NCBI RefSeq assembly: GCF_001766235.1 | Contig: NZ_CP015164.1 | Coordinates: 2,383,001-2,447,000 of the forward strand | DNA: 64,000 nt | Direction of reading: 5' to 3' | Source of the DNA: Acetobacter ascendens | GTDB taxonomy: Bacteria; Pseudomonadota; Alphaproteobacteria; Acetobacterales; Acetobacteraceae | Shown: piece after piece, positions 37,101-40,386 of the stretch | Numbering within the stretch: position 1 is the stretch's first letter | Layout of the letters: every line of letters starts with the position of its first letter | Position numbers and translations under genes: made by a program | Notes under the pieces: generated by a model | Database searches by the model: none | What the model saw: the letters and a program-made list of their open reading frames with translations, nothing else | What the model was told of the DNA's origin: nothing

Positions 37101-37279
37101 ACGCTCTGCCCATCCATATGGCGCAAAAAGGCTTCTGTTAATGCACGCGCAGCACGCCTGCCGGGCAGTACAATAATACCCTCACCTATGACTTCTACAT
37201 CATGATTTGCGGCTTGAATCCAACGTAAAGCAAGTTGATCAAGAAAAGGAAGATGTGCAGGGATTGTTGTAAGTTTCAT
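34190..37279 (-). CDS. addB: Double-strand break repair protein AddB
   Basis: The 1029-residue partner of AddA scans for Chi-like sites and carries a second nuclease. The N-terminal helicase-like region has only a degenerate nucleotide loop (VLPGRRAARAL). The C-terminal nuclease contains GRADRIELNTDGHVIVQDYK, followed by TG. The four-cysteine iron-sulfur clasp known from Bacillus AddB is absent: the end reads PRFADYARLARVPEW, with no Cys. The start is ATG 37279 (MKLTTIPAHLPF), which overlaps the tsaE stop; upstream codons are not conserved. Confidence 0.92.
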   Translation of the reverse strand: MKLTTIPAHLPFLDQLALRWIQAANHDVEVIGEGIIVLPGRRAARALTEAFLRHMDGQSVLLPRIVPIGTLDEAELGLSAGIGSELALDLPPAVAGMTRLAVLARLVLQADKAFGTRPTLDQAWSLAKALADLMDEAEWSGVNLAERLPEAVQENFAEHWQIILRFLEIVTQAWPEWLKENGVMNPVARQVALLEAQADLWHKFAQQGDNTPIWAAGFTHVMQPTVKVLQAVLECPAGKVILPGLDMMMAEETFLSLPDSHPQAGLSALLKNLEITRNTVEVWESAGKGAERAAILSRILLPAEALDDWSHPGGAELENVYRLDTADQQEEAVAISMIMREAIEKPAHRVALVTPDRVLAARVATELARWGVLADDSAGSSLVDTPAAVLLRLVAQMVDSRFSPVSLLSVLKHPLVACGFATGVCRATARLLERAILRGPAPPPGFAALCQVVDNALENPNERAKAKLEGGVTADRPFGPVALSVFMERLAFCLEPILGWELDAAEASMQTAQGLEQHCAPVPDLLAALIATVERLVATDEESASERLWRGEEGNMLASQLTELMLASDVLPPQPPVVLDGLLTAVLAPERVAMRRGGDPKSLHPRVLIWGLFESRLQTAETVILGGLSEGVWPPVVDAGPWMSRPMRQRMGLPSPEQAVGQAAHDFFASAAAAGTVILSSARRREGAPVVPARWLTRLDAFLAGRNGHIPNHPALFWLNKLDQPLGPATPVVPPQPMPPVALRPRRLSVTEIETWIRDPYAIYAKHVLRIEVLPELEEAADASDYGMIVHKALERWVKAYGVAWPENAEKKLCDLFSASLQEHVLRPALRAWWAPRLTRIAQWVVQAEEKRRNEHGVPRAILTEIRGRVSIMDAPGGKFDIVGRADRIELNTDGHVIVQDYKTGTLPSAKDVLAGWSPQLPLEAAMIIRGGFKEVPEHSREISNLIYWRLTGGAEPGEEVVVKTREALSLTDLAEQTWENLLLRIAAYDQPDQPYLSHPHPGREPRFADYARLARVPEWNSARKENDE

Positions 37280-37761
37280 ATGCCAGCCCCACAGCCAGCC
37301 AGATCCACCTTTTGCAATCTTTCTTCCCATCCTGATAATCTAGCTTGGCGTTGCCCATCAGCCAGAACATGTATTTCAAGATTCAAGGCATCTTCAGGCA
37401 ACAAGTCTTCTAGTTTTTGTGGCCATTCAACAAGCACCACACCTTCTCGTGCTTCATCCCACCCAAGCTCTTCAAGTTCGTCTGGGCCACCCAATCGCCA
37501 TAGGTCAAAATGAGACACAACGCATAAAGGGGATTCGTAAGATTGCACTAAGGTATAGGTAGGGCTTGGCACCTCCAGATTAGGCACTTGGCAAAATGCT
37601 CGCAAAAAAGCACGTGCAAAAAGGCTTTTCCCGGCCCCAAGCGGACCTGAAAGCAAAATAGCATCTCCTGCTTGCGCATATTCTGCCAGCTTTGTGGCCA
37701 GCTTTATTGTCGCACCTTCATTTTGCAGAATTATATCTCTGGCCATCTTAACCTTTTCCAT
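37276..37761 (-). CDS. tsaE: tRNA threonylcarbamoyladenosine synthesis ATPase TsaE
   Basis: The 161-residue P-loop protein works with TsaB and TsaD to make t6A37 in ANN-decoding tRNAs. The Walker A is GPLGAGKS (39-46), followed by VPSPTYTLVQSYE and FDLWRLGGPDELEELGWDE, both family hallmarks. Met6 (37746), with AAAAGG before it, is an alternative start. It is first in the tsaE-addB-addA run, with overlapping ends. Confidence 0.94.
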   Translation of the reverse strand: MEKVKMARDIILQNEGATIKLATKLAEYAQAGDAILLSGPLGAGKSLFARAFLRAFCQVPNLEVPSPTYTLVQSYESPLCVVSHFDLWRLGGPDELEELGWDEAREGVVLVEWPQKLEDLLPEDALNLEIHVLADGQRQARLSGWEERLQKVDLAGCGAGI

Positions 37762-38124
37762 TCATTGCCTAGCCATTTGCCACAAATCACAAAAATGAGA
37801 GGTTTTTTGTTACATTAGCTCCGATATCACAAAGAAGTGTACCACATACTAAACAAACAAATATTTCCTACATCCACTTGTTTTAGAAATATTTTTTTTG
37901 AAATTTCACAAATAAAATCTAACACTTCTTATCTGTTTCTTAATCTTCACTCCTTATTATATTCCTTTCGATATGCATCACATGCATGATTGGTGTGCGC
38001 AAAAGAGAACATCTGAACGAAATATTGTTTGTTTCTTTTTGAAACACGTATAGGTTTAGTTGTAGCAATAAAATGCAACCCAAGGATACATTTTTGATTC
38101 TCTGAACCATAATGAGGTTCCACC
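37762..38124. other. AT-rich divergent intergenic region of about 360 bases
   Basis: No gene is supported here. It is clearly richer in A+T than the surroundings, with runs such as ATTTTTTTT, and contains ATGCATCACATGCAT (37974-37988), a short direct/inverted repeat. It should hold the promoters of tsaE (leftward) and the CtrA-like regulator (rightward). No exact TTAA-N7-TTAA CtrA box was found by eye. Confidence 0.55.
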
Positions 38125-38907
38125 ATGCGTATTTTACTTTTAGAAAATAATTTCACCTCAAGCCGGGCAATATTTTCGGCATTAACAAAAGCCTCTTTTT
38201 CGGTGGATATGGTTCGATGTGATCAGGAAGTTATAGAATTACTTAGAAACTATGATTATGGCCTTGCCATTCTTCACCTGCAACACCCTGATATTGATGG
38301 GTACAACATCCTTAGCACATTACGATCTTTAAAACTCGCTACGCCTGTTATCGTCATCTCTCCAGTCAACAATCCGGAAGTGAAAACACAAGCTTTTGCC
38401 GCAGGCGCAGACGATTATCTGACGGACCCTTTTGATTCGACCGAACTTACAGCGCGCATACAAGCTATTTTACGACGCGCACATGGGTATGCCCACCCTA
38501 TTGCACATATTGGCGACCTTACAGTTAACCTCAATAGTCATGCTGTAACTGTAAAAAATCAGCCTATTCACCTTACCGGGAAAGAATTTTCCATTCTTGA
38601 GCTACTTGTATTGCGTAAAGGCATTGCCCAAACAAAGGAAACCTTTCTCAACCATCTTTATGGAGGAAGGGATGAACCAGATATAAAAATTATAGATGTT
38701 TTTATCTGCAAACTTCGCAAAAAACTTCAGGCTGCTGGTGCGGGAAATCTTATTTCTACCGTATGGGGTAGAGGCTACATTTTGAATGACCCGCAAGCAG
38801 CCAAAGCATGCACATCCATGCCTACTCTTGGTAAACACCTTCAACAATCCCAATCAATGTCTGGCCTACATGTCTCCCACCCACATGCTGCGGAGAGTAG
38901 CGCCTGA
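38125..38907 (+). CDS. CtrA-like response regulator with a degenerate receiver domain
   Basis: The 260-residue protein aligns without gaps to CtrA of alphaproteobacteria over both domains. The C-terminal winged helix is strongly CtrA-like: LTGKEFSILELLVLRKG, FLNHLYGGRDEPDIKIIDVF, then ICKLRKKL and VWGRGYIL. The receiver is not normal. The acidic pair after LLLE is Asn-Asn (8-9), the phosphate-accepting Asp51 is His (LAILHLQHPD) and the Lys of the T-K-P motif is Asp101 (YLTDPF). It therefore cannot be phosphorylated in the usual way. A ~30-residue tail of no known type follows. It stands alone between divergent tsaE and convergent glmM, in AT-rich DNA. I infer a CtrA paralogue that binds DNA independently of phosphorylation; it could also be the only CtrA copy, which the window cannot tell. 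Confidence 0.85.
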   Translation: MRILLLENNFTSSRAIFSALTKASFSVDMVRCDQEVIELLRNYDYGLAILHLQHPDIDGYNILSTLRSLKLATPVIVISPVNNPEVKTQAFAAGADDYLTDPFDSTELTARIQAILRRAHGYAHPIAHIGDLTVNLNSHAVTVKNQPIHLTGKEFSILELLVLRKGIAQTKETFLNHLYGGRDEPDIKIIDVFICKLRKKLQAAGAGNLISTVWGRGYILNDPQAAKACTSMPTLGKHLQQSQSMSGLHVSHPHAAESSA

Positions 38908-39027: not shown

Positions 39028-40386
39028 TTACGCAGGCACACGCACCTGCTCAAGCACATCGCACATCTGATCAACAACTTCATCAACCAGATTTGCATCT
39101 TCTGCTTCTGCCATCACACGCACCAAAGGTTCTGTACCGCTTTTGCGCAGCACCAAACGCCCTCGGCCTGCTAGTTTGCGCTCTACATCAGCCTGACGGC
39201 TTTTGACTTCATCCATATCAAGCGGACAGGCACCTTTGTATCGAACATTTTTTAGCTTTTGGGGAAACGGCTGAAATAACCGGCAAACTTCACTAGCTGG
39301 ACGACCATCCTGCACCAAAACTGCCAGGATCTGCAAAGCTGCAATCAGCCCATCGCCTGTTGTTGCAAAGTCTGTCAGTACCATATGCCCGGATTGCTCA
39401 CCGCCAATGTTAGCCTGCCGTTCTAGCATGCGCTCGACAACGTAGCGATCACCCACTGCCGTACGTTCTAAGCTTAGGCCCAGATTTTCAAGAAACCGTT
39501 CCAATCCCATATTGGACATAACGGTTGCCACAACGGAATTGCCCATCAAGCGTCCCTCACGCACCCAAGACTGAGCAATAAGAGCGAGAATCTGATCACC
39601 ATCAATCAGGCGGCCAGTTTCATCTGCAATTAACACACGGTCTGCATCACCATCCAGAGCAATGCCCAAATCCGCCTTATGTTTTACAACTGCGGCACAC
39701 AGGGCCTCAGGATGTGTTGAACCACACTTTTCATTAATATTTACGCCGTTAGGCTCACAACCTATCCGGATTACTTCTGCTCCCAGCTCCCACAATGCAG
39801 TTGGGGCAACCCGATAGGCAGAGCCATTGGCACAATCAATCACAATCTTCATGCCATCCAGCCGCAATTTACGCGGGAAAGAAGCTTTAGCACTTTCTAT
39901 ATAACGGCCCGCCGCATCATTCAGTCGGGATGCTCTACCGATATGCTCTGGCTTTGCCAGATATGCGGTAAGATCTTTTTCCATCAAGGCTTCAATTTCG
40001 CTTTCATCGTGATCAGAAAGTTTGAAGCCATCTGGGCCAAACAGCTTGATGCCGTTATCCCCAAAAGGATTGTGAGAGGCGGAAATCATAACACCCAGAT
40101 CTGCCCTGAGAGAACGCGTCAGCATGGCAATTGCAGGCGTTGGCAATGGGCCTACCAACGTGACGTCCATACCAGCAGAAAGAAAACCCGCAACCATGGC
40201 GCTTTCAATCATATACCCAGAAAGCCGCGTGTCTTTTCCTAACAGAACGCTATGCCGATGGTCCCCCCGCTTGAAATGCAACCCGGCAGCCTGCCCCAGT
40301 TTTTGGGCCACTTCCACCGTCATCGGCGCAACGTTAGCAGTGCCACGAATACCGTCTGTTCCGAAAAAACGCTTCATTCTGCTCAT
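39028..40386 (-). CDS. glmM: Phosphoglucosamine mutase
   Basis: The 452-residue enzyme turns glucosamine-6-phosphate into the 1-phosphate for peptidoglycan and LPS precursors. The phosphoserine is Ser104 in [14 protein letters not shown]. The metal loop is DGDADR (245-250), the sugar-binding loop GEQSGHMVL, and the phosphate-binding loop [14 protein letters not shown] is near the end. Met4 ([12 protein letters not shown]) is the other possible start. The gene converges on the CtrA-like regulator and lies downstream of folP on the same strand. Confidence 0.96.

Follow-up and report, generated by a model that had tools for sequence, protein, structure and literature searches.

A CtrA orthologue without its phosphorylation site is shared across a clade of Acetobacter and probably acts independently of phosphate

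The window, the whole 64-kb stretch of Acetobacter ascendens DNA that was analysed, carries a ctrA orthologue with an unbroken frame of 260 codons (Table 1). Pfam places a receiver at residues 3–113 and a Trans_reg_C domain at residues 146–220 of the product. Against NCBIfam the protein scored best with the CtrA model NF045991 (292.9 bits, under the cut-off of 350 of a model that, going by its name, was made for Rhodobacterales), followed by PmrA at 143.3 bits. The near-invariant recognition helix agrees with the claim of a first-pass annotation of the window, made from the letters alone, that the DNA-binding half is close to CtrA. In the genome (3.0 Mb, 100% complete) the closest other regulator is only 32% identical to the protein, so the window gene is the genome's only CtrA. 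A second ctrA with Asp51 was looked for there and none was found, and the competing CtrA that the annotation had envisaged was rejected on the same identity value. Among the 35 genus loci scored, glmM adjoins ctrA in 34 and tsaE in 24; glmM was seen at none of the ChpT-bearing family loci, where the flanks are short (about 0.5–1.5 kb). Judged by sequence and gene order, the window gene is a true CtrA, single, syntenic and grouping with the other CtrAs of the family. An Rfam scan of the window returned two tRNAs only.

Table 1. Features at the ctrA locus (positions of the window)
Feature	Coordinates	Strand	Basis
tsaE, upstream neighbour, synteny marker	37276..37761	-	
Conserved upstream/leader region of ctrA	38020..38124	+	
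GATTC (GANTC, CcrM-type site), 29 nt 5' of the start codon, in 5/5 His51 relatives	38096..38100	+	
ctrA orthologue, 260 aa plus stop	38125..38907	+	ORF call, CtrA model match, sole CtrA of genome
Receiver (residues 1-118) with fold retained but pocket altered	38125..38478	+	Pfam, AF2 model, alignment
Codon 8: Asn (AAT); Asp in 54/54 ChpT-bearing relatives	38146..38148	+	
Codon 51: His (CAC); Asp in 54/54 ChpT-bearing relatives	38275..38277	+	
alpha4-beta5-alpha5, residues 84-118; charges D96, D97, E107, R111, R117, R118 in 16/16 pocket-decayed CtrAs	38374..38478	+	
Codon 101: Asp (GAC); Lys in 54/54 ChpT-bearing relatives	38425..38427	+	
DNA-binding winged helix, residues 126-222, recognition helix near-invariant	38500..38790	+	Pfam, alignment
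C-terminal tail, 38 aa, mostly low model confidence, without terminal Ala-Ala	38791..38904	+	
glmM, downstream neighbour, synteny marker	39028..40386	-	

The GC content is 43% in the ctrA gene and 31% in the 300 nt upstream; most of the window's 1-kb blocks have about 52%. AT-rich DNA had been held to set the gene apart; the richness is there, but all five His51 orthologues share it (41–43% GC), so that low GC is a trait of the lineage. Horizontal transfer, considered because of this composition, was rejected given the shared composition and the synteny.

The pocket of the window's CtrA reads E7-N8-H51-S79-D101, compared with the reference pocket E7-D8-D51-S79-K101 in all 54 family CtrAs from ChpT-bearing genomes. 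The annotation had correctly read Asp51 as replaced by His and the conserved Lys by Asp. It had also given the acidic pair as Asn-Asn; asparagines do stand at residues 8 and 9, but the pair is Glu7-Asp8, as the invariance of both in the ChpT-bearing relatives indicates, so that Glu7 is kept, only Asp8 has changed and Asn9 lies outside the pair. We take Glu7-Asp8 of CtrA to be the acidic pair of CheY and PhoB. The five nearest orthologues all share Asn8 and His51 and have an acidic residue at 101; the changes therefore go beyond chance or error, and a strain-specific error was rejected. The AlphaFold2 model (19 sequences) has a mean pLDDT of 78 and a pTM of 0.49, with residues 227–260 below 50. 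Its receiver matched the solved CtrA receiver 4qpj_C, from a phosphotransferase complex, with 42% identity and a TM of 0.91 by target length (Foldseek), in keeping with the annotation's view that fold-forming residues remain. As modelled, the receiver has its fold without the phospho-acceptor Asp and is in that sense that of an atypical response regulator. The phosphorylatable pocket that a CckA-ChpT-driven CtrA requires is, on the alignment, absent from the window's protein.

Loss of Asp51 extends well beyond this strain. In 36 genus CtrAs (from 34 of the 37 genus genomes and two further ones), residue 51 is Glu in 13, Thr in 7, Asp in 6, His in 5, Ser in 4 (one a partial gene) and Asn in 1. 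Thus 30 of the 36 are without Asp51, which contradicts a change unique to the strain, but six do keep it; likewise, the pocket conserved in the nearest orthologues gives way to other residues at 51 elsewhere in the genus. Three genus genomes (G012, G016 and G020) had no CtrA at E 1e-40. Family-wide, in 130 rows (a non-random sample, roughly one genome for each genus together with those members of the window's genus that were found, excluding the partial Ser51 locus L046), residue 51 is Asp in 74, Glu in 36, Thr in 7, His in 5, Ser in 3, Ala in 2, Asn in 1 and a gap in 2, Glu being the commonest replacement. The two gapped rows, L275 and L278, are ctrA relatives with the receiver and the DNA-binding half in different frames, possibly through assembly errors. 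All 16 class outgroup loci from other families that were read, out of 20 CtrA loci found, have Asp51. The 80 named loci have Asp in 74, Glu in 4 (A. cibinongensis, A. musti, Gluconacetobacter tumulicola and Novacetimonas maltaceti), Asn in 1 (A. garciniae) and Ser in 1 (A. papayae), so that named carriers of a residue other than Asp include Acetobacter, Gluconacetobacter and Novacetimonas. Going by names, the genus is Acetobacter: at every column compared, the CtrAs of genomes G001 and G015 match those of A. cibinongensis and A. musti.

The rest of the pocket varies as well. Asp8 is lost in 22 of the 36 Glu51 proteins. In the window's branch, Asp51 and Lys101 are both lost in 16 of 16, residue 101 having become Glu in 9, Asp in 4 and otherwise Ala, His or Gln; Thr or Asn at 51 is paired with Glu101 in the sister species of the His51 clade. 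Three relatives with genomes of 2.0–2.5 Mb (L269, L273 and L276) have badly eroded receivers, with Ala51 and HNH or with Glu51 and an altered acidic pair. Five of the six genus CtrAs that retain Asp51 form one clade and have the whole pocket intact (L024, L025, L028, L029 and L064), and ChpT was found in none of the six genomes, G090 among them. Retention of Asp51 where ChpT is undetected implies that something still favours the pocket there, or that another donor feeds Asp51.

A ChpT match (PF10090) over the cut-off was present in 81 of the 140 genomes of the family and 18 of the 24 of the class, but in none of the 37 of the genus, the window's included. Four family rows (G268, G335, G428 and G439) had no ChpT test, leaving 126, or 124 without L275 and L278. 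Every CtrA accompanied by ChpT (54 of 54) has Asp51; the 70 without ChpT have Glu in 33, Asp in 20, Thr in 7, His in 4, Ser in 3, Ala in 2 and Asn in 1. The Fisher value of 1.5e-18 is not to be taken at face value because the association amounts to about one event: 0.9 of 6 independent pairs on supported branches differ in ChpT, and the pairs are too few for the independent-pairs test of Asp51 loss against ChpT loss to reach 0.05. On the tree, the association appears to be mostly of a single origin.

For CckA, the query P0002 (nearest NCBIfam model CckA, 651.7 bits, under the cut-off of 1000) matched at 1e-25 in 35 of the 37 genus genomes, no genome's best match exceeding 39% identity or improving on 5e-64; in the class it matched at 1e-100 or better in 17 of 23 genomes, the query's own left out. 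Family-level matches grade into general hybrid kinases. In the window's genome, where kinases were enumerated by HisKA only, HisKA was over its cut-off in 11 proteins and below it in one. The conserved stretch of P0002, read by eye, was in none of these kinases; the nearest, ambiguously, was the hybrid kinase L187, with 305.7 bits for CckA versus 290.6 for the next family, both far below cut-off. The P0002 search and the kinase reading thus found no clear CckA in the window's genome or the genus, both ChpT and CckA being hard to recognise by sequence.

GcrA (PF07750) is present in every one of the 37 genus genomes and in 12 of the 24 from the class. SciP (PF06627) was found in 0 of 37 genus genomes and in 9 of 24 class genomes; since 15 of the 24 also lack it, its absence is perhaps older and need not be tied to the change in CtrA. 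FliM is present in 25 of the 37 genus genomes, and no FliM match was found in the window's genome or in 9 other CtrA-bearing genus genomes, so the role of CtrA cannot be motility alone. As FliM is also present in G012, which is without CtrA, motility as the reason for retaining CtrA was unsupported.

The losses of Asp51 were followed on a tree of 89 CtrAs, made by a quick method with the pocket columns removed; 32 of its 82 inner branches are open. The genus falls in a group of 71 rows (SH-aLRT 98) together with many ChpT-less genera and with the named Gluconacetobacter and Novacetimonas. This group, here called the acetic acid bacteria from the names of its members, includes Asp51 rows, and the Glu51 row L236 falls outside it. 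The bases of two large branches were reconstructed as Glu51 (0.999 and 0.995) and that of the window's branch (17 rows with His, Thr, Ser or Asn) as neither Asp nor Glu (0.994), and for the joint ancestor of the window's branch and its Asp51 sister clade Asp is likelier (0.61). At the root of the group Asp stands at 0.49 and Glu at 0.51, so an order in which Glu came first is unsupported. In one of the two Glu51 branches residue 51 changes twice, and in the other once. The share of receiver sites that change oftener than residue 51 in the window's branch is only 14%, and for residue 101 it is only 8%, as if constraint on the pocket had been relaxed.

Constraint is evident elsewhere in the protein. 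Conservation of 90% or more among the ChpT-bearing relatives defines 56 sites in the DNA-binding half and, outside the pocket, 48 in the receiver; the 16 pocket-decayed CtrAs retain 89.5% of the former and 66.4% of the latter. The corresponding values for the five Asp51 Acetobacter CtrAs are much the same (89.6% and 68.3%), so the wider drift of the receiver is independent of the loss of Asp51. Helix alpha1, presumably the ChpT contact, has drifted to 34% identity with the ChpT-bearing consensus, compared with 64% within that group. A95, D96, D97, E107, R111, A114, R117 and R118, which we take to be dimer-face positions of OmpR and PhoB, are each present in 16 of 16 pocket-decayed CtrAs, and K87 in 15. 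By a simple counting estimate, in which several pairs have dS above 1 and pairs share branches, dN/dS over residues 1–222 is 0.005–0.124 in 23 pairs (0.067–0.113 in six His51 pairs), and for the receiver 0–0.170 in the 23 pairs. These low ratios indicate that CtrA is under purifying selection in the window's lineage and, with the retained DNA-binding half and dimer-face charges, that it is no pseudogene, an option rejected also because the frame is open. The annotation's wording, selection for the changes, thus fits only in part: the DNA-binding half and the dimer face are constrained, but the pocket looks released.

Upstream of ctrA, 390 columns aligned from five His51 species, including 36 nt of coding sequence, have a mean column identity of 84%. 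GANTC is depleted in window positions 1–64000, with 101 sites against 159 expected and at least 101 in all 100 shuffles, as if a CcrM-type methylase had shaped the window's sequence. Two dyad-like elements at 38029–38091 (TGTTT...AAACAC and ACAACC.TAAGGTGT) recur, some of them varied, in 12 aligned ctrA promoters of the genus. GAACC-N7-GGTTC, at 38104–38120, overlaps the ribosome site of ctrA in five of five His51 species; a hairpin over that site was rejected, folding being no better than in shuffles (z of -0.23 and 0.06 for the window, -0.61 and -1.29 for two relatives). TTAA-N7-TTAA has no occurrence in the 64-kb window and is hence absent from the promoter of the window's ctrA; TTAACCAT occurs once in the window against 2.1 expected. 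Of 130 ctrA genes, 12 have the 7-base TTAA spacing within their 300 nt upstream, against about 2.2 expected under single-base shuffling; the next commonest TTAA spacing is found in 6. This excess may be a weak sign of ctrA autoregulation in the family and is none for the window.

A tail of about 30 residues had been thought distinctive. It is present, with 38 residues after residue 222; the median is 35.5 in its branch (16 rows) and 23 in the 54 ChpT-bearing relatives. A terminal Ala-Ala is found in 35 of 54 CtrAs with ChpT and 13 of 36 with Glu51, in 0 of 16 of the pocket-decayed branch and in 0 of 6 Asp51 Acetobacter CtrAs. An Ala-Ala C-terminus is linked to ClpXP, and its loss is a hint that CtrA turnover may have changed as well.

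Lacking the acceptor Asp and any donor that could be detected, the window's CtrA probably does not act as a phospho-switch; as its dimer face and recognition helix are intact, it most likely binds CtrA-type sites constitutively, with its amount as the signal. We think it probable that the CckA-ChpT relay feeding CtrA disappeared, or grew unrecognisable, in the lineage, and that the sole CtrA was retained under strong constraint as a phosphate-independent regulator, its receiver ceasing to be a switch worked by phosphate and becoming a permanent dimerisation module. In many lineages Glu at 51 would mimic phosphorylated Asp, and in the window's Acetobacter branch the pocket would be wholly lost (His, Thr, Ser or Asn at 51, no Lys101). 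The alpha4-beta5-alpha5 dimer would bind CtrA-type sites without phosphate, and output would follow the amount of CtrA made and its rate of removal, synthesis perhaps being timed, as a conjecture, through GcrA and the promoter GANTC site or its methylation. DNA binding and regulation without phosphorylation, and how the amount of CtrA is set, are what we infer here; the annotation's proposal of a phosphorylation-independent regulator gains support from the pocket loss, the undetected ChpT and the kept DNA-binding half. A fuller history can be offered only tentatively: once the relay was gone, a phosphomimetic Glu51 may have become fixed in large branches while control shifted from phosphorylation to CtrA amount (GcrA, GANTC methylation), and in Acetobacter the Asp51-Lys101 pair may then have become a reversed His51-Asp101 pair that would hold the receiver fixed in the state that dimerises.

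The receiver could instead be vestigial, a passive stabiliser with no regulated or dimer role beside a DNA-binding half that alone matters. The frequent changes at 51 and 101 in the window's branch, the lowered conservation of the receiver and the eroded receivers in the 2.0–2.5 Mb relatives would all suit such a reading, but receiver dN/dS is well below 1 in every pair, the D-D motif and alpha5 charges are invariant and the model has the full receiver fold, so that we regard it as unlikely. A receiver that still senses, through phosphorylation elsewhere or through a small molecule, a protein or redox, as some atypical response regulators do, would be in line with full-length Foldseek matches that include HP1043 (2hqr), RitR (5u8k and 5u8m, the latter titled as of a redox-sensor family), CosR and GlnR, and with the retention in the pocket-decayed branch of Ser79 (15 of 16) and an aromatic residue at 98 (16 of 16). 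His51 nevertheless differs from the Thr, Ser and Asn of the nearest sister clades, which speaks against one shared new ligand site at 51, and we give such sensing a low probability. Neutral decay towards loss would find its parallel in the three CtrA-less genus genomes and in Granulibacter, which has no ctrA according to the accessible part of PMC2877005, but it is very improbable in view of the low dN/dS in all 23 pairs, the conserved promoter and the near-invariant recognition helix.

Like the Caulobacter-type CtrA, the window's protein has orthologous receiver and DNA-binding halves and a near-identical recognition helix; it differs in having neither Asp51, Asp8, Lys101 nor the terminal Ala-Ala, with ChpT undetected and no clear CckA. 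HP1043, CosR, GlnR and RitR are orphan Asp-less OmpR-family regulators that have lost the phosphorylation site and belong to different families and phyla from CtrA. The window's CtrA shares with them the lost phosphorylation site, the orphan state, a kept receiver fold and the DNA-binding class; unlike in those cases, the parent here is CtrA, and Asp51, Glu51 and decayed forms stand side by side in relatives. The D51E allele is a CtrA phosphomimetic in Caulobacter, as stated in a portion of PMC12186491. Glu51 is its natural counterpart in 36 of 130 family rows, but natural Glu51 proteins have often lost Asp8 too, and the window's protein has His51. In Rhodobacter, overexpression of the non-phosphorylatable D51A CtrA raised gene transfer 2-fold, going by an excerpt of PMC6363796. 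A passage of PMC12733265 mentions Caulobacter ClpP and CtrA, and the main text of PMC13214618 does not contain 'CtrA'.

Published work already covers the loss of the relay in part. In the accessible part of PMC2877005, the relay is missing to differing degrees in Rhodospirillales, no chpT orthologue was found in CtrA-bearing organisms with a 'degenerate' relay, and cckA is stated to be present; this last point differs from our reading, and best-hit calling of general hybrid kinases may be the cause. The same portion describes GcrA and methylation as timing ctrA expression in Caulobacter, and phosphorylation as the single indispensable layer of CtrA control there. Similarly, an available section of PMC8116508 gives chpT, cckA and divL in 27–36% of Rhodospirillales genomes, versus 72–82% for ctrA, gcrA and ccrM. 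The terms 'D51', 'aspartate' and 'receiver' were not found in the main text of PMC2877005. Titles and abstracts found in the open-licence literature on CtrA, acetic acid bacteria and atypical regulators gave no description of Asp51 loss in CtrA, and no paper on CtrA targets in acetic acid bacteria was found; as far as our searches show, loss of the acceptor residue is not in print within that literature.

That this CtrA without a phosphorylation site is real and clade-wide is well supported by the comparisons above, its activity being predicted from what is conserved. Acetic acid bacteria would thus offer a large natural group with a CtrA that seemingly lacks the phosphorylation layer, which may allow tests of what is indispensable in the circuit. 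They may also provide a graded series for the dismantling of a two-component switch, from Asp51 with ChpT through Asp51 without it, Glu51, and Thr, Ser, Asn or His at 51, to no CtrA at all.
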